Positions 48,722 through 62,785 of a stretch of DNA of 64,000 nt are shown one piece after another; the first letter of the stretch is position 1, and each line of letters begins with the position of its first letter. The DNA is from Cavenderia fasciculata (Eukaryota > Evosea > Eumycetozoa > Acytosteliales > Cavenderiaceae): positions 992,001 to 1,056,000 of the forward strand of contig NW_004457639.1 of the NCBI RefSeq assembly GCF_000203815.1, in the 5' to 3' direction. Under the pieces are notes generated by a model. The model searched no databases. It was not told the origin of the DNA and worked only from the letters and a program-made list of their open reading frames with translations. The position numbers and the translations under genes are program-made.

Positions 48722-51700
48722 ATGAATAAAATTTATTCACTGTATCATTATCTATTTGTATTATTATTTATTTTTTTCATTCAATCGACAGTAGTAGTCA
48801 TAGCACAACAATGGTTGGAAATTAATCAATACCAAGGTTATGAAAATCTTGGGTGTACTGGTGTCCCTAGAAAAGTTACTAGTTATGTTACTGGTCAATG
48901 TTATATGTATGTAATTAGAAATATCTATAATATTAATATTTATTTATTTATTAATTTATTAATTTATATTTCTTTTCTTGAAAAAGAAAACCATCAGGAT
49001 CATTTAAAATTGAAGTTTCTGGAGGATCAATTGTTAGATCACTTTATGCAAATGATTATTGTTCAGGTGCACCTGAAATAACTAAATCTGTTGCCAAAGA
49101 TGTTTGTGATGATGGTAATTTGGAAGCACCAACCTATATCCGTTACGTCTCTGCACCAGTCTATCCAACTCCAGGTTTCAACTATTACGAACATTATATT
49201 TCCAATTGTAATGCCGATGAACCAAACTCTGCTAGAGTATTGGTAGCTGATAACTTGTTCTTAAATTGTGTTTCAAATGATGAATTAACGTAAGTAAACA
49301 AATATTAATAATAATAAGAATAATTAATATTTATTTATTTATTTATTTTAATTTTCTAGAGCTGGATTATATGTTTCAGCAGCAACAGATAGCCAATTAG
49401 AAATGAATATTTATAGTCCTGCAGGATGTAGTATGGGAGGAACGATGGTTTATACAAAGGCATGTCAATTGAATGCTGGTGGAGTGACTAGAGCTCAAAG
49501 AGTCACGGCCATCTTTTCATTGACCCCCAGTTATTATGTCAGCGGATCACAAATTATTGTTACCTCTGTCACTTCCAATTATCCAAACTCTCCATCAAGA
49601 TACAACTTTTTCTATTATAATGGTGGTTGGCAGTTGGTTTGTCAAGCAGCTCTTACCTGTACTATCTCTGGTATCCCTCAATCAACCGGTCTAAGAGTTG
49701 AATTGTTTGGTCAACCTGTGATTGGAGGTATCCCATCTTGGGAGACTGCAACCAACCAAATCAACTTACCAGCTACGATGAATTCATTGTCACTTATTAG
49801 TTATACCACCAAACAGGCAACCATTTCCTATTCTGGAACCTATGTTTCAAATTATGTATTTTCTCTCAATGGAGGAGCTCATTCTGGGTGCCCATCACAG
49901 ACAACCTGTGTTATTTCCGGTTCGCCAGGTCAGAGATTGGATATTGGTGTTGCTGCTCAAAATGCTGCCGGTGTATCTGCCTATCAGTACACATCTGTCA
50001 CTCTGTATCAGTCAGTCTCTATTCCAACCATCACCTCTATCTCATCTACTACAAACTCTGTATCACTGTCTTGGAGTGCTTCTCTGTATGGTGTGCCTGG
50101 TTTGACAACCTATACCGTTAAATTTAATGGTATCACATTTACACCATGTCAATCGATAACGTCGTTGTCTTGTACTGTTACGGGACTGGCTATTGGTACA
50201 TCCTATACCATGACTGTCACTGCTACCAATGATGGGACAAGTGTAAACGGTCCCGGCACACCCATCTCTACATTTGCTGCGCTGTCTGATCCATCCATCA
50301 CTGCATCTACCACAAAGACCAAGTCTATTACTGTAACATATGCTCCAAATGGTGGTGACTCTTCAAAAGGGTATACATGGGTAGTATTGAGAAATGGTCA
50401 ACAAGTATACTCTGGTAGTAATACTCAGACTGTTGTTACTGGTCTGTCTCCCAACACTGCCTATACTATCCGTGTCCAATGTACCAATGACGGAACAACC
50501 AAGTTTGTTGAAACCTCTCTCACAACAGTCCTATCCATCCACACTCCATCCATTACACTGTCCAATGTTTTAACCAAAACAATGCTTGCTACATTTGGAG
50601 TTGGAGGTGGAGGTGTTGTAGGTGATACTCGTTATACTGTCACTCTTAATGGTAGTCCAACAACTTGTACTAGCCAAACTACCACAACATGTAGTTTGAC
50701 AGGACTAACACCCAACACTCTCTACACTGTATCTGTATCCATTTCAAATGATGGTGATAGTTTATCCAAGGATGCTCAAGCAACTACTGTAAAGGCTGTA
50801 AACACACCAACTCTTGCTCTATCGTCGATCACTACCAAATCAATGATAGCCACGTATGGATCAAGTGATGGTGTTGTTGGATCAACAAGATACACTGTCT
50901 CTATAAACGGAACCAATCAAGTTGGATGTATAAATGTTGCAACAACTACATGTACACTCATCAACTTGGTACATAATACCTATTATTTGGTTAGAGTGAC
51001 AGTTACCAATAATGGAGATACAATCCTATCTGAAAAGGTTCAACCTACTTGGAAAGATGTTTCCCAACCATTGGTACAAATTACTCAAGTTAAATCTGGT
51101 GTATTGATTGAATACAGTTCAACCGATGGTATTCCAAATCAAACAGTCTATCAGGTTTATGTCAACAATGCATTACAAGAAAGTTGTCCTACCACCACCG
51201 CTGCCTCTTGTTTATATTCAACCTTTTCTCCAGGTGATAGTTTGAATATCAGAGTTGTAGCAACCAATGATGATGACACTCAAACAACCACATCAACCTT
51301 TTATACCTATACCTACCCAAGTCAAGTTCAAATTGCCAACAATACATTGGTCAATGATATATCGATCAACTGGACTTCTAGTACTGGTGGATTCCCAAAG
51401 GCTAGTTCTTACTCTGCATTTATTTCATTTGACGGTGTCCATTTTATTTTGGATACTCCAAATTGTCAAAACATTACTGTTGATCCTATGGAATGTCATT
51501 TTAGTGGATTGGTATCTGATACCAACTACTTTATCAGAGTATCTGTTATTAATACAGACTTTGAATGGGTCAATACAACCATTGAAACTCGTACTCTTAG
51601 AGACACACCAAAAAGTTTTATTTGTCAATCGGCTAGTGACTGTAGTAACAATGGTGAATGTTTGCAAGGGTCATGTGAATGCAATGCTGGATGGAATGGA

Positions 51701-52705
51701 TTGATTTGTAATGCTCCAAAACCAACTGACCAACAAGATGTCATTGTTAAACCAGTTCAAGATAAACCACTATTAGAGGTTACCATTAATGGTGTATCTT
51801 ATGAATTCTCACTTGTCACTATCACTGAAAAGACAATGGACGATGAATCTGCATTTATCATGTCATTGGCCAATGAAACTTGGGCACTGGATTCATCACA
51901 AACCAACATAACCGTAAATCATCCAATTGATCAATCACAACTCATCAAGAATCAGTGGACCTATTCACTTTTAAATACATCAGATGATTATTCCATTTCA
52001 ATTGTATTTATACTTTATGAAAAGAAACATGACAATGTTGATGGATCAATGACCAATAGTACATTGGATACATATCCATATGAATTTGCAGGTGATACAT
52101 TCAATGTTAAATATGGGTCATTAAAGTATAGTCTAAAGATAAAGAAATGGAATTTTAAATCAGTTTTAAATACATTGGAGATTTCAACTACTCTATCTAC
52201 TCCAAAAGATAATTGTGGTAATACTAAATCTGCTGCTGGTGGACAACTTCCAACTATCACCAATACCAATGAAAAGACAACACTCATTACACTTGGTAAT
52301 GAAAAAGAAGAACATCATGTATTTGGTAAACTGATTAATCGTGCTCTTTTAGATTCTATCCCTAAAAAGATATATTATAAAACTGTAGAGCCGACTGATC
52401 CTTCCTCGTCATCATCTGACCATTACTCTCTATTGACATTGGTACCATACTTTTCTAAAGATGCAGATTTAGATCCAGACTTTTCACTGTTGCTACAAAC
52501 CAATATGGACGGTACTGTCAACCTCAACGATTGTAGTGGCAGTAATGCAAAGAACCTTGGGCTTATAGTTGGGCTGTCGGTCGGTCTAATCAGTGCGGCT
52601 GGTATTGGAATTGGATCAACCATCTATTTCAAAAAATTAAAATTACAACGTCAACTAATAGCTAAATTAAATGCTAAATTATCAAGAACAACTACACCTG
52701 CCTAA
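48722..52705 (+). CDS. Cell-surface protein with fibronectin-III repeats, EGF domain and ComC-like domain
   Basis: Three exons: 48722-48906, 48987-49289 and 49360-52705, giving ~1277 aa. A signal peptide (about 1-28) leads into a Cys-containing lectin-like head. Roughly six fibronectin-III-like repeats follow, ~90 aa each, several with TCSLTGLTPNTLYTV-type strands. An EGF module is at about 918-945 (CQSASDCSNNGECLQGSC). Then comes the stalk-like beta domain that follows EGF repeats in ComC-family proteins (VTINGVSYEFSL, YGSLKYSLKIKKWNF). One membrane helix is at about 1228-1253 (LGLIVGLSVGLISAAGIGIG), with a short basic cytoplasmic tail. A role in cell adhesion or signalling at the plasma membrane is likely by family. 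Confidence 0.85.
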
Positions 52706-52995: not shown

Positions 52996-53460
52996 ATGGA
53001 ATCATCAAGACCAAAAGAATTAGCAACACGTAAACCAGAATTATTCAAGGAAGGAGTACAAACATATCACGGTAGTTGTCATTGTGGAGCAGTTAAATTT
53101 GAAGTAGATTTAGACCTTCAATACGCAAAGACCAATAGATGCAATTGTTCGTTCTGTGCAAAGGCTAGACAATGGGGTATCGTTGTTAAACCAGAACAAT
53201 TCAGATTGGTTGCAGGTGCTGATAATCTATCGGTCTATCGGTTTGGTTCAAAGTCTGGTGACCATTGCTCATGTAAAACTTGTGCCATCAAGACTCACGG
53301 CACCGGATATGTAGAGCAATTGGGAGGAGCCTTTGTAGGAGCCATCATTGCATGTATTGACGATCTTTCTGAAGAACAAAAGGATTCTTTAATCTATTCT
53401 CATTCAAATGGAAAGGATGATCTTTGGTGGGAAGAACCAAAATTCAAAAATCATTTATAA
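52996..53460 (+). CDS. GFA/CENP-V-fold zinc-binding protein
   Basis: I chose the ATG at 52996 (AATAATGG context), giving 154 aa. An upstream in-frame ATG at 52834 would add a basic leader with no family match. Zinc ligands are GSCHCGAVKFEV and NRCNCSFCAKA, and the third pair is in SGDHCSCKTCAIKTHGTGY. This is the Mss4-like fold of the glutathione-dependent formaldehyde-activating (GFA)/CENP-V family. Members bind zinc and, in some cases, carry out glutathione-linked chemistry; the substrate is not predictable. Single exon, probably cytosolic. Confidence 0.88.
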   Translation: MESSRPKELATRKPELFKEGVQTYHGSCHCGAVKFEVDLDLQYAKTNRCNCSFCAKARQWGIVVKPEQFRLVAGADNLSVYRFGSKSGDHCSCKTCAIKTHGTGYVEQLGGAFVGAIIACIDDLSEEQKDSLIYSHSNGKDDLWWEEPKFKNHL

Positions 53461-53538: not shown

Positions 53539-53544
<6 letters not shown>

Positions 53545-54703
53545 CACTGCTTTTATTTGATTTATAGAGTCGTTGATTTGAGATAGAAATTCTCTCGATT
53601 CACTTAACTGTTTTAAAAATGACTGTTTATAGGCCAAATAATCATAGGTAATTCCGATTCCCATGAAAAGTAGGGCAATCACTGTCAAGTCCTTTAATAG
53701 ATATATAATATCCCTTGTTGTTGGCTAAAAAAGAAGAAGGATTTAGGTTAGAGTCATTTCAAAATTACATGTATCTTTGTGTCTTTAATATCTATCTATC
53801 TACTTACATTCATGATTGATTTAAACTTTAAAATAGTTTTACTTTCTGGTTGAGCCAATCCATAGAAACATTTAGTGTCTCGAGTTGCTGATACTGACAA
53901 TCCATGGAGACATTTAGTGGCTCGTGTTGCTGATACTGCCTCGTCAAATGTCACCGATATTCCTATTCGGGACCATAGATATTCACTAAACCTACCTTTG
54001 GTTCTCATTTGATAGATTGAGCCATAGGGAGAGAGTAATGAATGCAATTGGCTTAATGGTATTTCAATGCCATCAAAAGTGACAATAAAAGTGGTCAGGA
54101 ATCCAGTACTACCCGAATATTCTTGACCATGAGCCTCTAAACAATGTAAATACAAGTTGTACTTTGCAGCATTCTCTCTAATCTTGTCCATAATCTCTTG
54201 CATAGAGGTGGTCTTTGGGTCAAACTTGGCAGAAACATAACAACCATTCTTGGTTTGTCCATTACTTATTGTTTCGAGTTTAACACCTTTTGGAGCAATC
54301 CCTTCAATATGTTCGATAAGTCTTTTCTTTGGTGACCCAAAAAGGGATAGCTTGGCATCAAATCGATTATTGCGAATTGAATCAATCCATATCTTTCCTT
54401 CTTGTTCCTATTTTAAATAGGAAAATATAAATTAAATAAACAATTAATTGTATAGTCTTTATAACCTTGTTGGATAAACTAACCTATACATACATTCACA
54501 ATAGTAGTAGATTGTGTTTCAACTTTGGGGAAACCAACATTCAGAGTTGATAAGTATCTTTGACCAACGATAAATGATGATGGTGATGAAGATAGTCTTT
54601 GAAAGATAGAGGAGATTGATTGATATAATCTTTGACCTTGTTGTTGTTGTATCTTTGATACTGGAGTTGAAGTGTTTGATGTAATGATTTTCTTTGTATA
54701 CAT
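53539..54703 (-). CDS. RRM-like family protein A with presequence-like N-terminus and membrane anchor
   Basis: Three exons: 54703-54494, 54407-53808 and 53724-53539, all phase 0, giving ~331 aa. Exon 1 encodes a Ser/Gln/Arg-rich leader (LYQSISSIFQRL, RYLSTLN) resembling a mitochondrial presequence. Exon 2 encodes two alpha/beta halves. The second reads like a divergent RRM: FIVTFDGIEIPLSQLHSLLS, YGSIYQMRTKG, ISVTFDEAVSATRATKCLHG. A short internal duplication (SATRxTKCxxGL) is special to this copy. Exon 3 encodes a membrane helix (LTVIALLFMGIGITYDYLAY) and a charged tail. Function unknown to me; a membrane-anchored mitochondrial RNA-binding protein is a hypothesis. Confidence 0.75.
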
Positions 54704-54850
54704 TTTTATAATTGTTGACTTATCTATCTATCTTGTCTATGTTTGTATAACAATGATAGTAATCATGATAATAAAGAGATGATGATGATGATTATGATCA
54801 TCATCATCATCATGATTACATCTACTTTGTGTAGCCAAAGCAACCTCTTT

Positions 54851-54871
54851 AAAAACCGGACTGCAACCTCA
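54851..54871 (-). promoter_or_regulatory. Upstream element shared by family members A and D
   Basis: A 21-bp block with core CCGGACTGCAACCTCA lies ~150 bp upstream of the start of protein A and recurs exactly at 60538-60558 upstream of D. In both places a CATCAT microsatellite and TACATCTAC lie between it and the gene. In this A/T-rich setting such a GC-rich match stands out as a conserved control element or duplicated promoter. Confidence 0.45.
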
Positions 54872-55173
54872 CCCATACCAGAGTTTATGAGTTGTCTTGT
54901 TGATGGATGAAGGTTCTTATCATTACTTGAATAGATGTTGACAAGAACAAAGTATTAACTAGTTGATGACGACATGAGAGAAATATAGATTAAATAAAAA
55001 AAAAGAAAAGAATTAAATTAAGTTAACCCACAAAATTAACAACACTTTTCTATTCCAAACAAAGATCTTAATTACAAACAAATATACAATTATGCTAAAT
55101 ACAGAAACAGATAAAATTATCCCTCCTCCTCCTACTCCTACTTGTATCAAAGAGGGGGGAGGATGACAAGCAT

Positions 55174-55734
55174 ATGAATGGGTCAAGTCAGAGAAATAAC
55201 AACAACAAGAATAATTGGAAGGATACCTCAAAAATAGTAGCTGGGTCTGTGTCTCTGCTGGTTTATACAATTATGTCGACTGCTATTCTTTTGTCGGGTA
55301 GTAAACCTAAAGAAAGAGAAATTGAAGAAGAAAGAAGAAAGAGTGAAAGAGCAATCGACAAACAGAGACGGACAGAAAGAGGAATACTTAATCAACACCA
55401 GAGATATAGTGAGTGTATGACAGACATTGATGAATTCCGTATGGAACACAGTGACAACTATGTTGCGGACTTTTTCGAGGGGATGGCAAAAGAAAAGAGA
55501 GATGAAGAAATCAATCGCATCAACCAATGTAGACAAATGACCAAAGATTATTGGAGACATGTTTTATTGTGGAGTGAGCATTGTCCTGTCGAATACCTAC
55601 AAAAAAAACCTTTCAAAGTAGAAAGATACCAACGCGAGCACAAGATATTTCTCTCTATTGTCAAACCATTAGACAGAAATGAAAGCCAATTTGATATATA
55701 TGATCCATTTTCCGATCTATTCAATAGTTCATAG
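55174..55734 (+). CDS. Hypothetical membrane/coiled-coil protein
   Basis: A single-exon frame of 186 aa starting MNGSSQRNNNN. One hydrophobic helix (IVAGSVSLLVYTIMSTAILL, about residues 21-40) is followed by a strongly charged coiled-coil stretch (KEREIEEERRKSERAIDKQR). The C-terminal half contains Cys and Trp (CRQMTKDYWRHVLLWSEHC). I recognise no family. It sits on the plus strand between members A and B of the RRM-like family, which run on the minus strand. A single helix with a soluble coiled coil suggests a membrane-anchored structural or adaptor protein. Confidence 0.6.
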   Translation: MNGSSQRNNNNKNNWKDTSKIVAGSVSLLVYTIMSTAILLSGSKPKEREIEEERRKSERAIDKQRRTERGILNQHQRYSECMTDIDEFRMEHSDNYVADFFEGMAKEKRDEEINRINQCRQMTKDYWRHVLLWSEHCPVEYLQKKPFKVERYQREHKIFLSIVKPLDRNESQFDIYDPFSDLFNSS

Positions 55735-55817
55735 TTTGAACTGATGGGATCCCGAAATCAAAGGTTATTATATATATAAACCATTTGGGTTGGATTTACA
55801 AATTATTTATTTTTCTT

Positions 55818-56802
55818 TTAGATTCTCACAAGATATCTAATAATTGCATCATTTATGATTCCGAATACCAACAAAATGCCTCCCAACTTTACCAACTCTT
55901 GTATTAAAAATTTTAGCTATAAAGAAAGAAAGATTTCTGGGTTAGAGATTGACTAAACATGTAATATTTGTGTCTTGAATATCTATCTATCTATCTATCT
56001 ATCTTACAGTCAAAGTAGATTTAATCTTTAAAGTAGTTCCACTTTCTGGTATGGTCAATCCATGGAGACATTTTCTGGCTCTTGTTGCTGATTCTGCCTT
56101 TGCAAATGTTACCGATACTCCATTGCTTCCCTTAGTTTTCATTTGATTGATTGTTCCATAGGTTGAAAGGAGTGAATGTAATTTACTCAATGACATTTCC
56201 TTGCCATCAAAAGTGATAACAAGAGAACGAATAGTGGTAGCGGCAATATTGTCTATTTGACCACGAGCCTCCAAACAATTTAATGCCAAGTTGTACTTTA
56301 CTGCATTCTCTTTGATCTTGTCCATAATCTCTTGAGTATTCGTAGTAGAAGATTTGACAGAAACATAACAACCATTCTTGGTTTGTCCATTACTTATTGC
56401 TTCGAGTTTAACACCTTTTGGAGCAATCTCTTCAATATTTCCAATTAGACTTTTCTTTGGTGACCCGAAAAGGAATACTCTGATACTAAATTGAATATTC
56501 CTAATTGAATCAATCCATATCTTTCCTTGTTCCTTGGATTGTGTTTCAACTTTGGGGGCAACATTTTGAGTTGATAGATATCTGTGACCGACAATAGATG
56601 ATGATTGTGATGAAGATACTCTTTGAAAGATAGAGGAATTTGATTGATATAATCTTTGGCCTTGTAGTTGTTGTGATACTGTTACTGAAGTAGATCTAAT
56701 ACTTCTACTCGAATTGATCAATAATGATGATGATGATCTTTTAAAGATGAGTGTATTTGTAACACGAGATGATAAAGATGTTATCATCTTATTTGTATAC
56801 AT
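55818..56802 (-). CDS. RRM-like family protein B, leader and core exons fused
   Basis: Two exons: 56802-56008 and 55916-55818, giving ~297 aa. The leader (IFKRSSSSLLINSSRSIRS, RYLSTQN) runs straight into the core (KIWIDSIRNIQFSI...) with no intron, whereas A, C and D have one there. This is intron loss or retroposed conversion. The core keeps LVITFDGKEMSLSKLHSLLS, YGTINQMKTKG, VSVTFAKAESATRARKC. The last exon is a short membrane helix (LGGILLVFGIINDAIIRYL) ending at once, with no tail. Function unknown; probably membrane-tethered like its relatives. Confidence 0.75.
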
Positions 56803-56940
56803 TTTATAATTGTTGACTTATCTATCCATTCATATCTTGATGTATTTATATAAATATATATTAATCTTAATAAACAATGATGATCAGACAATTACGTCTA
56901 TCTAAAAAGATTCCTTTTTAAAAAAAATCTGAATAGATAA

Positions 56941-57095
56941 GTTTTAGGATATTAATAGATTTATTTGTTTATATGTTTATTTATTTATTTATTTATTTAT
57001 TTGTTTATTTGTTTATTTGTTTGTTTATTTGTTTATTTATTTGTTTATTTGTTTATTTGTTTATTTATTTATTTATGTATTAATTAATTTATTTG
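56941..57095. repeat. TTTATTTG-type low-complexity tract
   Basis: An imperfect tandem of TTTATTTG/TTTG/TTTA units of ~130 bp between the promoter of B and the 3' end of C. It has no coding meaning and is a likely replication-slippage tract. Confidence 0.7.
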
Positions 57096-57096
57096 T

Positions 57097-57496
57097 TTAG
57101 TGGAGGCATAGTACTAAATTGATTTGAGGTTGGTTTGAATAATTTAGTGATTTAATTTGAGGTGCTGGGGTGGAAGCTTGGGTATTGGAGATTTTGAGTT
57201 GTAATTGAGTATTCTTGAGATCACCACCCTCGATTGTTGCAACCAGTCTTTGTCCAGATGGATAGACTGCTTCGATTACTGTTTTCCCATCCTCTCCCAA
57301 ATATGGAAATTGAAAGTTCTCGCCAGGTGATTCGAGTCTTTTTCTCTCACGTAAATACTTCTGAATTGAGAAACCTGAATCGACGATAAGATTGGTTAAA
57401 CAAACAAAGAATATTATTTTCATCAAGATTATTATAAGTTCTACTATATCAGATGTGGTTAACTAAAAAAAAGATTAAAAAAGATTATTTATGAGT

Positions 57497-57531
<35 letters not shown>

Positions 57532-58506
57532 ATTAATTAAATAAATATAAAACATTTTAGCGTCTTTAATAAATTCTATCTATCTATCTATCTTACACTA
57601 ATGATTGATCTAAGTTTTAAAGTAGTTTCACTTTCTGGTATGACCAATCCAGAGAGACACTTTCTAGCTCTCATTGTTGATAGTGCCTTGTCAAATGTTA
57701 CCAATACTCCATTTCTAGTTTTATAATAAAAGCTGTATGTGAATTTCATTTGATTGATTGGGCCGTACGACGAGAGTAATGAATGCAAATCACCCATTGA
57801 CATTTCCTTGCCGCCATCAAAATTGACAATAAAAGAGCGAAAGAATATATCATTATCCAAGTATTCTTTACCACGAGCCTCCAAACAATGTAAAGCCAAG
57901 TTGTACTTTACTGCATTACTTTTAATGTTGTCCATAATCTCTTGCATAGAGGTAGAGTTTGGGTCAAACTCTAGATTGACATAACAACCATTCTTGGTTT
58001 GTCCATCACTTATTGTTTCGAGTTTAACACCTTTTGGAGCAATTTGTTCAATATGCTCAATAAGACTTTTCTTTGGTGACCCAAAAAGGGATACCTTGAT
58101 ATCAAATCGAATATTATCAATTGAATCGATCCATATCTTTCGTTTAACCTATTTTAAATAAATATTTTAAATTAAAATCATTAATTAATCAGTCTGATTT
58201 CAATTCTAATGGTGAACCTATACATACATTCACAATAGTAGTCGTAGAAGTGGATTGTGTTTCAACTTTTACATCAACAGTGGGATTTGCTGTTACACTG
58301 TGGACAAGAGTTGATAGGTATCTGTGACCAACAATAAATGATGATGGCGATGAAGATAGTCTTTGAAAGATAGAGGAGTTTGATTGATATAATCTTTGAC
58401 CTTGTTGTTGTTGTATCTTTGATACCGAAGTTGAAGTGGTTGATGAAAGATGACTAATACTACTACTCGAATTGATCAATGACGATCTTTTCATGATGAA
58501 GTACAT
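57097..58506 (-). CDS. RRM-like family protein C with C-terminal beta domain
   Basis: Three exons: 58506-58228, 58148-57597 and 57462-57097, all phase 0, giving ~398 aa. The leader is Ser-rich (LINSSSSISHLSS) with the family block GQRLYQSNSSIFQRLSS. The core is KIWIDSIDNIRFDIKVSLFG, then the RRM-like half FIVNFDGGKEMSMGDLHSLL, YGPINQMK, LVTFDKALSTMRARKCL. Exon 3 starts with a membrane helix (LIIILMKIIFFVCLTNLIV) but then adds a ~60-aa beta-rich module, KTVIEAVYPSGQRLVATIEG and GGDLKNTQLQLKI. That module is shared with D and absent from A and B. The function of this tail is not recognised. Confidence 0.75.
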
Positions 58507-58580
58507 GTTCTTTAATTTTTTTCATCCTTTTATTTGTTGTTATTATTATTTATTCAACAAAAACAATAATAGATAGAAAG

Positions 58581-58879
58581 ATGGAAGGAAAAGAGAAACC
58601 ACTTCAAATACAAGCACAAGATATAATTATGAGTACCGACTTTGATGTAGATCAGGAAAAGAACAAGGAGTTGAAAGCAATAGCTTTAGATTTTTTAGAT
58701 AGAGTACCAAAACCTAAAAAGAAAAGTATCCGAGCTTGAGAGGAAAAAGACCGGAGAGGAGGATCTCTCTGGCCAGAGCTTTCTACCAACCAGATTCTCC
58801 ACCCTCCAATTGCAGTGAAGAAAACTCAATCTCAGATACAGAAGATGACTTGGAACTTTGGAAATACCATTTATTTTAA
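58581..58879 (+). pseudogene. Small gene of ~100 codons with one frame break
   Basis: ATG 58581 opens 52 codons (MEGKEKPLQIQAQDIIMSTD..., ending KPKKKSIRA). In the +2 frame, directly overlapping the stop, a second stretch reads YPSLRGKRPERRISLARAFY then QPDSPPSNCSEENSISDTED and ends DLELWKYHLF at TAA 58877-58879. Both halves have balanced composition and together look like one small acidic/basic protein interrupted by a single small frame change near 58725. It lies on the opposite strand in the shared upstream space of C. The family is not recognised. Sequencing error is an alternative. Confidence 0.45.
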
Positions 58880-58954
58880 GAGATAAAATAAGACTATCTT
58901 ATCTTGTAGTTGCCAGTAATAGTTTGGTGGATTGTTTGTTGATGAAAATTTGTT

Positions 58955-60429
58955 TTAAGCATTCCAACTAAACCAACCTTTTGATTTTGGATAATTGGTT
59001 GTTTTGATTTGAGGTCTATCGGTTGATGATTGGGTATTGGTCAGTTGGAATTGTAATTGAGTATTCTTTAGATCACCACCTTCAACTGCTACAATCAATT
59101 TTTGTCCGGACGGATAGACTGCTTCGATTACTGTTTTACCATTTTCTCCCAAATATCCAAATACCATAGCCTCGCTACCACCAATTGATTCAAGTCCCTT
59201 TTGCAATAACTCTTGAACCCGTTCAATCTTTGAAATGTGGTATACAATAGCTGATACAAATAATGCAGCCATTAAAACAGTTGTTGCCTAAAGAAAGAAT
59301 AGAATAGAATAGAATAGAATAGAATAGAATAGAATAGAATAGAATAGAATAGAATAGAATAGAATAGAATAGAATAGAATAGAATAGAATAATAAATAAA
59401 AAGAAAAAGGGAATATAATATTATTGTGAGTTAATATATTTAAATATAAATATAAATATAAATATTATATATATAACTTACACTTATAGTTGATTTAAAC
59501 TTTAAAGTAGTTTTACTTTGTGGTAATGTTAAATCATAGAGACATTTTTTAGCTCTCAAGGATGATAATTTGTTGTCAAATGTTACCACTACACCTTTTT
59601 TGCTACCTCCCAAGTAGAGACCACTTTTAGTTTTCATTTGATTGATTGTGCCATACGTTGAAAGGAGTGAATGTAATTCGCTCAATGGTATTTCCTTGCC
59701 ATCAAAAGTAACGACAAGAGAACGACCAGTTGTAGTATCGTCATTGTCTATTTGGCCACGAGCCTCCAAACAATTTAAAACCAAGTTGTACTTTACTGCA
59801 TTACTTTTGATCTTGTCCATGATCTCTTGTATCGAGGTAGAGTTTGAGTCAAACTCAAAGTTGACATAACAACCATTCTCAGCTCTTCTGTCATCGATTG
59901 CTACCAGTTTGATACCTTTTGGAGCAACATGTTGAATATTTTCAATAAGTGTCTTTAATGGTGACCCCAAGATGAATATTCTCATATCAAATTGAATATT
60001 ATCAATTGAATCAATCCATATGGTTCCTTCTTGTTTGTTATCCTATTATTATAAACAAATCATTAGATATCTTTTCAAATATATATTGATTTAAAAGTAA
60101 ATATAACCTATACATACAACAACAATAGGCTCTGCTTCAAGCTTGGGGACATTCAAAACGTCACTGTTGTAGGCAACATATTCATTATTTTGAGTTGATA
60201 GATATCTGTGACCGACTACGAATGATGATGGTACTCTTTGAAAGATAGAGTTTGATTGATATAATGATTGACCTTGTTGATGTTGTTGTGATACTATCTT
60301 TGATACAGAGGTTGAAGTGCTTAATGAAAGATGACTAATACTACTACTCGAATTGATCAATGATGATGATGATGATGATCTTTTGATGAGTGTGTTTGTA
60401 AAGGAAGATAATATTTTCTTTGTGTACAT
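58955..60429 (-). CDS. RRM-like family protein D with C-terminal beta domain
   Basis: Three exons: 60429-60118, 60042-59482 and 59287-58955, all phase 0, giving ~401 aa. The leader is Ser/Lys-rich (LIKRSSSSSSLINSSSS, HRYLSTQN). The core is TIWIDSIDNIQFDMRIFILG, LVVTFDGKEIPLSELHSLLS, YGTINQMKTKSG, VVVTFDNKLSSLRAKKC. Exon 3 is a membrane helix (VLMAALFVSAIVYHISKI) followed by the beta module MVFGYLGENGKTVIEAVY...PSGQKLIVAVEGGDLK, as in C. Intron 2 carries a 19-copy AGAAT repeat. The upstream 21-bp element matches A. Function unknown. Confidence 0.75.
59296..59390. repeat. (AGAAT)19 pentanucleotide microsatellite
   Basis: A perfect pentanucleotide tandem of about 19 units lying wholly in the last intron of family member D. 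Length variation between strains is to be expected. Confidence 0.95.
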
Positions 60430-60537
60430 TTTATAAGAGAATCGATTATCTATATCTATCTATCTATCTATCTATATTTATAACAATGATGATGATGATC
60501 ATCATCATCATTACATCTACATATTTATAGTTTAAAT

Positions 60538-60558
60538 AAAAACCGGACTGCAACCTCA
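60538..60558 (-). promoter_or_regulatory. Second copy of the CCGGACTGCAACCTCA element
   Basis: Identical over 21 bp to 54851-54871 and placed ~110 bp upstream of the start of D. The shared spacer parts (CATCAT repeat, TACATCTAC) show that whole promoters descend from one ancestor, but this block is the part kept without change. Confidence 0.45.
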
Positions 60559-60693
60559 TCTAGTGGCACTAAAGTCGAGTCAAGTCGACGAGATGCCTTG
60601 GGTTTTCGCTACTGCCAGCCATTTTGACTTACAAAACAATAATTAATTTATTTATTTATTGAATATGACGATGACGACAATCTTCTTTAATGA

Positions 60694-61918
60694 TTATCTA
60701 TTTGTTCGAATTAGATCGAAGCTGGAAGTAGTAGTAGTACCAAAAGTTAATCTTCTGGATTGATGAAGTGTTAATCTTAATCTTACCATCATCAACTTTG
60801 GGGGTTTTGAAGAAATGTTCAACAAAATTATGTCACCAACATCTCGTGTAGTACTATGATTTAAACATTTTCTTGCTCTCGTTGCATCCATTTCCAAATT
60901 AAATTTAACATGAACATTTCTTTCCGAGATATTATCTACAATTTAAATAAATAAATATTAATAAATTTTAATATAAATATATATGGATGATGGAAAGTTT
61001 CATGGTTAACAAAAAATTGATACTTGCCTGGATCATAGTCAATCCATATTCCCTCAACAATGAGGTCAAGTTGTTGGGTCTAAATGTACCACCAGAAGCA
61101 TTGACATACACACTTTTGCCATACAAGATTTGAGTCTTTTCTATTCTACCCTTGACAATGGAGCAATGACAAGACAGATTGAATTGTTTACCATTGGTCT
61201 TGACAGTTTCAATAATGTCTTCAAGTAAAAGATGTTTTGGGAACCTGAAAACAACATAGCTACCACTTTCCCAATGACAAGGAGTGATTGATAGTACTTC
61301 TACACCACTTGGAACCATCTTTTCAATATTGTTAATGAGGTATCCAAGAGGTGTTTTGAATCTATGAGATTAGCTAATTTAAATTCAATATTTTCAACAT
61401 TATCAATCCAAATTGATTTCTCCAAAAACTATAATGCAAAAGAATGAAAGAAAGAAAGAAAGAGAAGGGGTAACAATAAATATATGTATACTTTTTAACT
61501 AATTGATTTATTATTTAATTATAATACATACATTTTCATCGTATTCGTCTTCTTCTTCATCTTCATCTTCATCTTCTACATCTTCTTTACCTTCATTTTG
61601 TTCTTTTACTCTAGAAGAGATGAATCTATGTGAAAATGGTGATGGTGATGATGATGATGATGATGATTTCACAAGTTGATTGACACTTTGAAAGATAGAG
61701 TTTGATTTAAATAATGATGATAATGGTTGGGCATCATGTTGGACTGGTTGTTGTGATGAAAATGATGATTTGAATAAATGAGATGATTGAGAAGGGAGAG
61801 ATACATAAGAAGGATTGATAGCACCTATTCTACTTGCTGATGTTGATAATAATCGTAGTTGTTGTTGTTTGACAATCGTTGAAATGGAAGATAAAGTAAA
61901 CATATATTTGGTTGTCAT
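60694..61918 (-). CDS. RRM-like family protein E, divergent, with acidic linker and one frame break
   Basis: Exon 1 is 61918-61532: presequence-like start MTTKYMFTLSSISTIVK, Ser-rich body, acidic end EDVEDEDEDEEEDEYDEN. Exon 2 is 61428-61024: KSIWIDNVENIEFKL, then IEKMVPSGVEVLSITPCH, SYVVFRFPKHLLLEDII, LTSLLREYGLTMIQA. Exon 3 is 60935-60694: VHVKFNLEMDATRARKCLNH. The extra intron 60936-61023 falls inside the RRM-like half, a position not split in A-D. Between about 61340 and 61375 the frame of exon 2 must shift by one base to join the conserved blocks, so this copy may be disabled or the read may have an error. No membrane exon was found. Confidence 0.6.
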
Positions 61919-62025: not shown

Positions 62026-62725
62026 TCACCATCGAGTTTGCAAAAGTGACTCCAATGGCAAAGTATGAGAAGGTGAACCCTTTTCGAGGGTTATGAATGT
62101 TTCCAGAGAACTATTGATATCTTTTGCCAAATCACCATTGGCGCACTGACAATCGTACTTTTTGCAAGCACATTTGCCACATTTTTCATCTTTTTTAAAG
62201 TAGCATTCCCAATGTACACCATTATCTGAAATAGGGGGTCGCAACAAGGGTCTTTTCAAGAGATTCCGGTAACTGTTTGTTTTCAATCTTTTGATGTTTA
62301 ATTTTGTCTTTAAACATTTCGTTGTTGGTAAGATGAATCTTAGCGGCACATGCATTATGAATCTTGGAAAAAAATATTATTAATGAATGGTTTCATTTGT
62401 GAGTGATGGTCGAGAATAAACACATACTTTGGAGGTATTAAATTCATTTACCGTAAGAGCCTTGTATCCCATATTCTTCCAAAGACGGTAAAAAGACTTT
62501 GGACCAAGACCAGTTGGTCCACCACCCCGAGAGGAACGGTAAAAATCAGAACCACCACCTCTACAGAGGATTAGAAAAAAAAAGATTAATAAAATAAATA
62601 AATATAAATATGATAAATGACATACAAATAACAGTTTTGTTTTTGGGTATTGTTGTGGGTGGCACAAATCGCTTTGCATAAGCATAGCGGGCACGCTGAT
62701 TGTCAATGTGTTTATTCTTGTCCAT
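62026..62725 (-). pseudogene. Remnant resembling a TnpB/Fanzor-type RuvC nuclease C-terminus
   Basis: From Met 62725 a short frame reads MDKNKHIDNQRARYAYAKRF then IPKNKTVIC. After a probable intron it reads GGGSDFYRSSRGGGPTGLGP and YRLWKNMGYKALTVNEFNTS, the layout of the RuvC-II to zinc-ribbon stretch of TnpB-like proteins (G-G--F--S--G---G--, then V-E--TSK). After a GTATGT donor at 62427 the next block has NACAAKIHLTNNEMFKDKIK but then stops. A Cys-rich piece (CGKCACKKYDCQCANGDLAK) lies in another frame up to 62026. The expected CxxC pairs are not in one frame, so the piece looks broken. Family assignment rests on motif spacing only. Confidence 0.35.
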
Positions 62726-62785
62726 GGTCTATAATCAAACTGTAAAGTTGCATGGACAAGAATAAACACATTGACAATCAGCGTG
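62692..62785. repeat. Perfect 35-bp inverted repeat with a 24-bp loop
   Basis: The arm 62692-62726 (CACGCTGATTGTCAATGTGT...) and arm 62751-62785 are exact reverse complements over 35 bp. Between them are 24 bp of unique sequence. The left arm holds the apparent start of the TnpB-like remnant. The right arm holds the stop of the gene upstream, so the same coding sequence appears on both strands. Confidence 0.9.

Follow-up and report, generated by a model that had tools for sequence, protein, structure and literature searches.

ATPase-less relatives of Yme2/RNA12 form an interrupted gene array in Cavenderia fasciculata and may act as inner-membrane tethers

What are the five related minus-strand genes that lie in a row on contig C18 (NW_004457639.1) of the dictyostelid Cavenderia fasciculata, and what might their products do? 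The window, i.e., the whole stretch of DNA analysed here, covers 64,000 nucleotides (C18 992001-1056000) in a 31.0-Mb genome assembly of 21 contigs, and the genes, A to E, occupy its positions 53539-61918. A first-pass annotation, made from the sequence alone, had read them as tandem paralogues, each with an import-signal-like leader and a core resembling an RNA-recognition motif (RRM), and A-D with a membrane helix that opens the last exon; it proposed membrane-tethered mitochondrial RNA-binding proteins of an unfamiliar family, diversified by exon exchange. We find that the genes are indeed paralogues, that their kin is a named family, Yme2/RNA12, and that exon exchange is unneeded to explain them.

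The exons of A-D join via GT-AG introns, all of phase 0, into open proteins (Table 1); B has two exons, its leader and core sharing one, against three in each of the others. The cores of A-D are 58-68% identical to each other and share three motifs, KIWIDSI, FDG.E..L..LHSLL.YG and VTF....S..RA.KCL, with small changes such as TIWIDSI in D and an extra G (FDGGKE) in C. Gene E is broken, with the first part of its core exon, which bears IWIDNV, in one frame and the remainder in another; it keeps IWIDNV and RARKCL and lacks the FDG and LHSLL motifs, and the original description thus holds in full for four members and in part for the fifth. No membrane exon was found 3' of gene E, where a hydrophobic 19-mer above 1.4 occurs in one later frame only, a low-complexity stretch near 60529, upstream of D; the other frames with a hydrophobic 19-mer sit upstream, within introns or out of frame. 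Because the core exon is in two frames and there is no membrane exon, we take gene E to be a pseudogene or an assembly error.

Searches of the genome, which scored best candidates only, place these genes in a small family. The D core finds A-C at E-values of 1.7e-69 to 2.1e-54, gene E at 3.7e-11 and two members outside the window: gene F at C5:1159636 (7.9e-17) and a full-length YME2 orthologue at C1:1514210 (4.9e-8). The array is a row of five genes, as first described, but plus-strand open frames (candidate genes) interrupt it in two places, the A/B gap and the C/D gap, and the family extends beyond it. Gene F is built like A-D, with a leader, the family core, a membrane helix and 34 more residues. 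Its leader exon (locus positions 2115-2512) runs into a stop and resumes in another frame, out of frame with the core, which is either an assembly error or a true frame break. The C1 gene (C1:1513768-1516749) encodes 865 residues with a Pfam RNA12 match at residues 381-776 (E=2.5e-55) and an RRM_1 match at residues 250-301 (22.8 bits, above the 20.7-bit cut-off), and by its architecture of leader, RRM, membrane helix and ATPase it is the Yme2/RNA12 orthologue, hereafter YME2. The RNA12 domain was located at this single locus of the genome, and neither A-D nor F gives a match to it (PF10443) at E<=1 in Pfam; these proteins are therefore relatives, not full members, of Yme2/RNA12.

Their kinship to YME2 was assessed in both directions. 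The YME2 core recovers itself and A-D (7.8e-14 to 5.5e-7) and nothing else at E<=1, missing genes E and F; F recovers A-E (6.9e-21 to 1.2e-8) and the gene E piece recovers A-D and F, both missing YME2. These searches with YME2, F and the gene E piece returned family members alone at the thresholds used. Pairwise, the YME2 core scores 72 bits with D, 65 with B, 56 with A, 53 with C, 40 with E and 32 with F, and the best of 3,000 shuffles reaches 23.5; this comparison, which all six exceed, rejects a chance likeness.

Gene structure points the same way, with introns of equal phase at equal borders. In YME2, E, A, C and D the core is immediately preceded by a phase-0 intron; F also has an intron there, although its upstream frame is broken, and B has none. 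Another phase-0 intron immediately precedes the membrane helix of YME2, F and A-D. YME2, F and E, but not A-D, also have a phase-1 intron in the second core domain, in the loop joining strands 2 and 3; since the length of this loop varies, the intron is shown in the same loop, not provably at the same residue. The helix-first last exon of A-D is inherited, because the same exon boundary is found in Yme2, whose exon continues into the ATPase. Further likenesses to Yme2/RNA12 are the leader, the RRM-bearing core (LWINNL in the orthologue, IWIDSI here) and the single helix after the core; the difference is the lack of the RNA12 ATPase in A-D and F. Among the matches listed in literature searches on Yme2, RNA12 and dictyostelid RRM or mitochondrial proteins, no title or abstract opening describes ATPase-less Yme2 paralogues; judged by sequence, the family is an ATPase-less variant related to the known Yme2/RNA12.

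The core had been read as one divergent RRM, and this was right in kind but not in number. In D it is predicted as two beta-alpha-beta-beta-alpha-beta units with a predicted local distance difference test (pLDDT) score of 79.3, and we dropped the single-RRM core for two units on this model, one good model in five and one in which domain 1 has no support from sequence. The best Foldseek matches of the core are tandem-RRM chains (E=9.1e-7), and RRMs make up the overwhelming majority of what Foldseek and VIA match, VIA barely covering domain 1. A profile of domain 2 finds Sex-lethal among PDB sequences at E=7.5e-8; the D core alone gives weak matches, the best again Sex-lethal (E=0.12), and D domain 2 alone scores 19.9 bits against Pfam RRM_1. 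For domain 1, the predicted topology and the span of the Foldseek match agree with an RRM. A near-threshold match of D to DUF7713 (23.7 bits, cut-off 24.1), which straddles the border between the two domains and recurs in two of seven domain-2 rows at E<=10, was set aside as probably due to chance. Sequence search found no solved structure of Yme2 (best E 0.48).

In our own reading of the core alignment, on which the consensus and register of the ribonucleoprotein (RNP) motifs rest, domain 1 retains W and Y at RNP-like places. The RNP2-like place reads IWIDSI in A-D, LWIDDV in F and LWINNL in YME2, and IWIDNV in the other frame of gene E, with W in all six rows aligned there; at the RNP1-like place, G and Y are kept in seven of seven rows. 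In domain 2, an aromatic at RNP2 position 2 occurs only in E and F, and one at RNP1 position 3 only in F and YME2. In gene A, 14 residues of a domain-2 helix are duplicated, and the helix should be longer or distorted as a result.

The leaders, up to RYL↓ST, contain 6, 9, 6 and 7 basic residues in A, B, C and D, respectively, and no acidic ones, as expected for the import signals first proposed. Those of E, F and YME2 have 8-10 basic residues and one acidic residue, with RFISS, RFYCS and RDIST, respectively, at a comparable place; the search pattern for these leader ends was composed after the sequences had been seen. RYL↓ST conforms to the R-3 processing motif, for which PMC3578813 gives xRx(Y/x)↓(S/A/x)x. 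Charge and motif thus fit a mitochondrial presequence, and amphipathicity is clear only in A; the leaders are compatible with such a presequence, short of proof.

The last exon opens with a hydrophobic segment in all four of A-D (best Kyte-Doolittle 19-mer 1.93-2.76, compared with 0.64-1.16 for the best non-overlapping window elsewhere in these proteins). A-D and F each have a single hydrophobic window above 1.9, and E has none. The tails that follow differ as originally described: 36 residues remain after the window in A, 11 in B, 94 in C and 95 in D, the last two predicted to form a beta-rich module, modelled with low confidence (pLDDT 57.2) from a two-row alignment, with a top Foldseek match at only E=0.29. 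Derivation of this module from the intermembrane-space part of Yme2 was ruled out (18.1 bits, E=0.14). Coa1 and Tim21 combine an inner-membrane helix with a small beta-rich domain in the intermembrane space, a plan that the C/D tail recalls; we found no Pfam or confident fold match to confirm this, scans of C, D and the isolated tails for Coa1/Tim21 (PF08695/PF08294) being empty. Genome searches with these two families also returned nothing, yet control sequences went unfound as well.

A tree of the two core domains (IQ-TREE, with YME2 chosen as root; Shimodaira-Hasegawa-like approximate likelihood-ratio test/bootstrap support) places D outside ((A,C),B), with support of 97.4/95 for A-D, 85.5/78 for A, B and C and 94.2/88 for A and C, and groups E with F (84.1/80) on long branches. 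Because C and D share a tail and are not sisters, the simplest reading puts the beta tail in the ancestor of A-D, with probable losses in A and B. The C and D tails have nonsynonymous and synonymous divergences (dN and dS) of 0.44 and 0.75, compared with 0.26 and 0.53 for their cores; recent exchange of the tail is not indicated, since the tails are no closer than the cores. Core dN/dS is 0.59 for A-B, 0.84 for A-C, 0.51 for A-D, 0.62 for B-C, 0.51 for B-D and 0.49 for C-D, and the bootstrap interval lies below 1 in five of six pairs and likewise for the C-D tail (0.32-0.97), which supports purifying selection, of a loose kind. A 20-nt element, GAGGTTGCAGTCCGGTTTTT, lies upstream of both A and D, the only two exact copies among those reported for the genome, and we regard the pair as a trace of copying.

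What such proteins might do is best approached through yeast Yme2. According to PMC9284673, that protein spans the inner membrane once, with its N-terminus and RRM in the matrix and its AAA+ part in the intermembrane space; it belongs to MIOREX and has genetic links to MDM38, MBA1 and OXA1, and the authors suggest that it tethers the translation machinery or, alternatively, recruits mitochondrial DNA. With the Y242A substitution the protein was lost, whereas F204A was without effect; since the helix is predicted at residues 287-305, the yeast RRM with F204 and Y242 lies before it and should correspond to our domain 2 (PMC9284673). The phrases second RRM, two RRM, tandem and ferredoxin do not occur in the main text of that report. 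RNA12 has been placed among the STAND NTPases by Kaur et al. (PMC8195603).

On balance we think it fairly probable that A-D and F are ATPase-less Yme2/RNA12 paralogues of the inner membrane, perhaps acting as passive tethers. Kinship to Yme2 is close to certain, an inner-membrane location is likely by analogy with the yeast protein, and a passive tether function for mitochondrial RNA or the mitoribosome is a tentative suggestion drawn from the same analogy. The proteins would enter mitochondria by their leaders, be cleaved near RYL↓ST and adopt the topology of yeast Yme2, with one inner-membrane span and both RRM-like domains in the matrix; beyond the helix, where Yme2 has its RNA12 ATPase, A and F have a short tail, B has next to nothing and C and D have a small, putatively beta-rich module. 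Having no motor, they could hold RNA or ribosomes passively at the membrane, or else work with Yme2 or compete with it. A tether of this kind would work beside or within Yme2 complexes and make contact mainly via domain 1. Leaders, helix and kinship to Yme2 all agree with the membrane-tethered mitochondrial reading of the first-pass annotation; the RNA binding that it proposed is putative.

A number of results weigh against this interpretation. The best of the five core models stands alone (79.3 versus 60.5, 59.1, 47.2 and 38.8), a sequence profile of domain 1 finds no RRM, and the two domains do not align with each other. Whole proteins score below the RRM_1 cut-off in B (18.2 bits), D (17.1) and F (16.8), and A, C and the gene E piece give no match. 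Domain 2 of A-D has no aromatic at RNP1 positions 3 and 5 or RNP2 position 2, the RNP2 loss being less sure than the RNP1 loss because a register one residue earlier gives A and C an F. Compared with 2000 shuffles, the leader helical moment is clear only for A (11/2000), with 171/2000 for C and 338-1282 for the other five. The broken gene E and the out-of-frame leader of F indicate ongoing decay in the family or assembly errors, and the A-C core dN/dS is not distinguishably below 1 (P=0.21).

Some of these points feed rival explanations, of which we favour none over the tether, although a protein scaffold and decay follow closely and no result decides among the three. The RRM folds could serve protein contacts, the paralogues being subunits or competitors of a Yme2 oligomer; this we consider possible but doubtful. 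The loss of RNP1 aromatics from domain 2 would suit such a scaffold, as would the three top-ranked VIA matches, RRM2 of PTB and hnRNP L with bound peptides (Raver1, SETD2), whose Z scores are close to those of many others, and yeast Yme2 is oligomeric, with an RNA, DNA or protein partner left open by its authors (PMC9284673). Against it stand the domain-1 Y of every row and the W of the six aligned rows; moreover, the ATPase part is perhaps needed for the oligomer, since in the same source the Walker B and double Walker mutants impair it and Walker A alone does not. Decay is rather improbable; on this view a partial copy of Yme2, its N-terminal half minus the ATPase, gave rise to an array that is on its way to becoming pseudogenes. 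The frame breaks in E and F, the helix duplication in A and the A-C ratio speak for decay, but A-D remain open with intact splice sites, their motifs and leaders are maintained, and the bootstrap intervals lie below 1 for five of six core pairs and the C-D tail.

Two further alternatives fare worse. Exchange of the last exon between paralogues, or its acquisition from outside, would give modular proteins with diverse tails on similar cores and would account for a beta tail common to C and D when A and C are sisters in the core tree; we hold it to be quite unlikely, as the pre-helix boundary already exists in Yme2 and F, the tails of C and D have by dS (values above) diverged at least as far as their cores, and the tail sequence occurs at two places genome-wide, C and D. 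That these are unrelated RRM proteins, resembling Yme2 as any two RRMs do, is largely refuted and very improbable. Domain 2 of E and F alone, it is true, scores within the shuffles against YME2 (the other four beat them all), and the YME2 core search misses both genes; the same search returns only A-D and YME2 itself at E<=1, the paralogues and YME2 have intron positions and architecture in common, and domain 1, which sequence does not identify as an RRM, beats every shuffle in six of six.

Compared with tandem RRM proteins (Sex-lethal, HuD, CUGBP1 and RRM1-2 of HuR), the passive-tether candidates resemble them in two successive RRM-like units, the second with a profile match, and differ in that domain 1 of A-D has no sequence match and domain 2 lacks the RNP1 aromatics. 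To our knowledge, none of these tandem RRM proteins is a membrane protein. YME2 differs from A-D in keeping the domain-2 RNP1 aromatic that they lost, presumably the equivalent of yeast Y242 by its place before the helix. We offer, as a speculative extension that may well not hold in full, that the matrix half of Yme2 is itself a tandem RRM in which the conserved RNA-contact signature sits in a first domain that has been overlooked, instead of in the annotated second one. Dictyostelids, on this view, would have released the half from its ATPase and expanded it into several inner-membrane tethers that differ in their intermembrane-space tails and may each be specialised for certain mitochondrial RNAs or life stages. 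As natural proteins with the RRM-bearing half and anchor and no motor, they separate the two functions of Yme2, and the W and Y retained in domain 1, at positions matched in yeast Yme2, are a direct mutational handle. The partner of the Yme2 RRM and the role of the ATPase are described as open questions in PMC9284673.

Table 1. Features of the array, in window coordinates
Feature	Position	Strand	Exons or parts	Remark
Gene A (331 aa)	53539..54703	-	54494-54703, 53808-54407, 53539-53724	GT-AG, phase 0
Gene B (297 aa)	55818..56802	-	56008-56802, 55818-55916	splice model; leader + core unsplit
Gene C (398 aa)	57097..58506	-	58228-58506, 57597-58148, 57097-57462	splice model
Gene D (401 aa)	58955..60429	-	60118-60429, 59482-60042, 58955-59287	splice model
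Gene E, broken or mis-assembled	60694..61918	-	61532-61918, 61024-61428 (core, two frames), 60694-60935	no membrane exon
D presequence-like leader	60199..60429	-	77 aa to RYL↓ST	no Asp/Glu and 6-9 Arg/Lys across A-D; putative cleavage of the R-3 type
Other leaders to RYL↓ST		-	A 54551-54703, B 56575-56802, C 58315-58506	
D domain 1	59749..60033	-	RNP2-like IWIDSI, RNP1-like ENGCYVNF	RRM-like by predicted fold only
D domain 2	59482..59733	-		RRM by profile + fold; RNP1 aromatics absent
D last exon	58955-59287	-	membrane helix, then beta-rich tail with VIEAVYPSGQ	low-confidence model
C exon homologous to D last exon	57097-57462	-		
14-residue duplication in gene A domain 2	53853..53936	-	VSATRATKCLHGLS / VSATRDTKCFYGLA	36/42 nt identical
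20-nt element upstream of A	54851..54870	-	GAGGTTGCAGTCCGGTTTTT	identical copy upstream of D, 60538-60557

The surroundings of the array hold several further features. The plus-strand open frame in the A/B gap (55162-55731, 190 aa) has, by eye, a hydrophobic stretch near its N-terminus and is otherwise charged, and its product matches nothing in Pfam at E<=0.01; the one in the C/D gap (58578-58739) is a small charged frame of 53 aa, likewise with no Pfam match at E<=0.01. Beyond A, on the plus strand, lie a GFA-family protein (glutathione-dependent formaldehyde-activating enzyme; 52999-53457, E=6.6e-10) and a large open frame (49352-52702), in whose product Pfam recognises fn3 repeats as well as one EGF-like and one ComC_SSD domain, and which we take to be of the ComC/Tgr-like kind. 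The final intron of D contains a long ATTCT tandem repeat (59290-59400). Upstream of E, a perfect inverted repeat with 35-nt arms and a 24-nt loop (62692-62785) has no Rfam match at gathering scores; its arm recurs intact at C18:727593-727631 and C4:226133-226171, a 34-nt piece (97%) comprising most of the loop and part of an arm lies at C5:3052904, and an additional 20-nt copy of the arm, 90% complementary, is found at 62406-62425.

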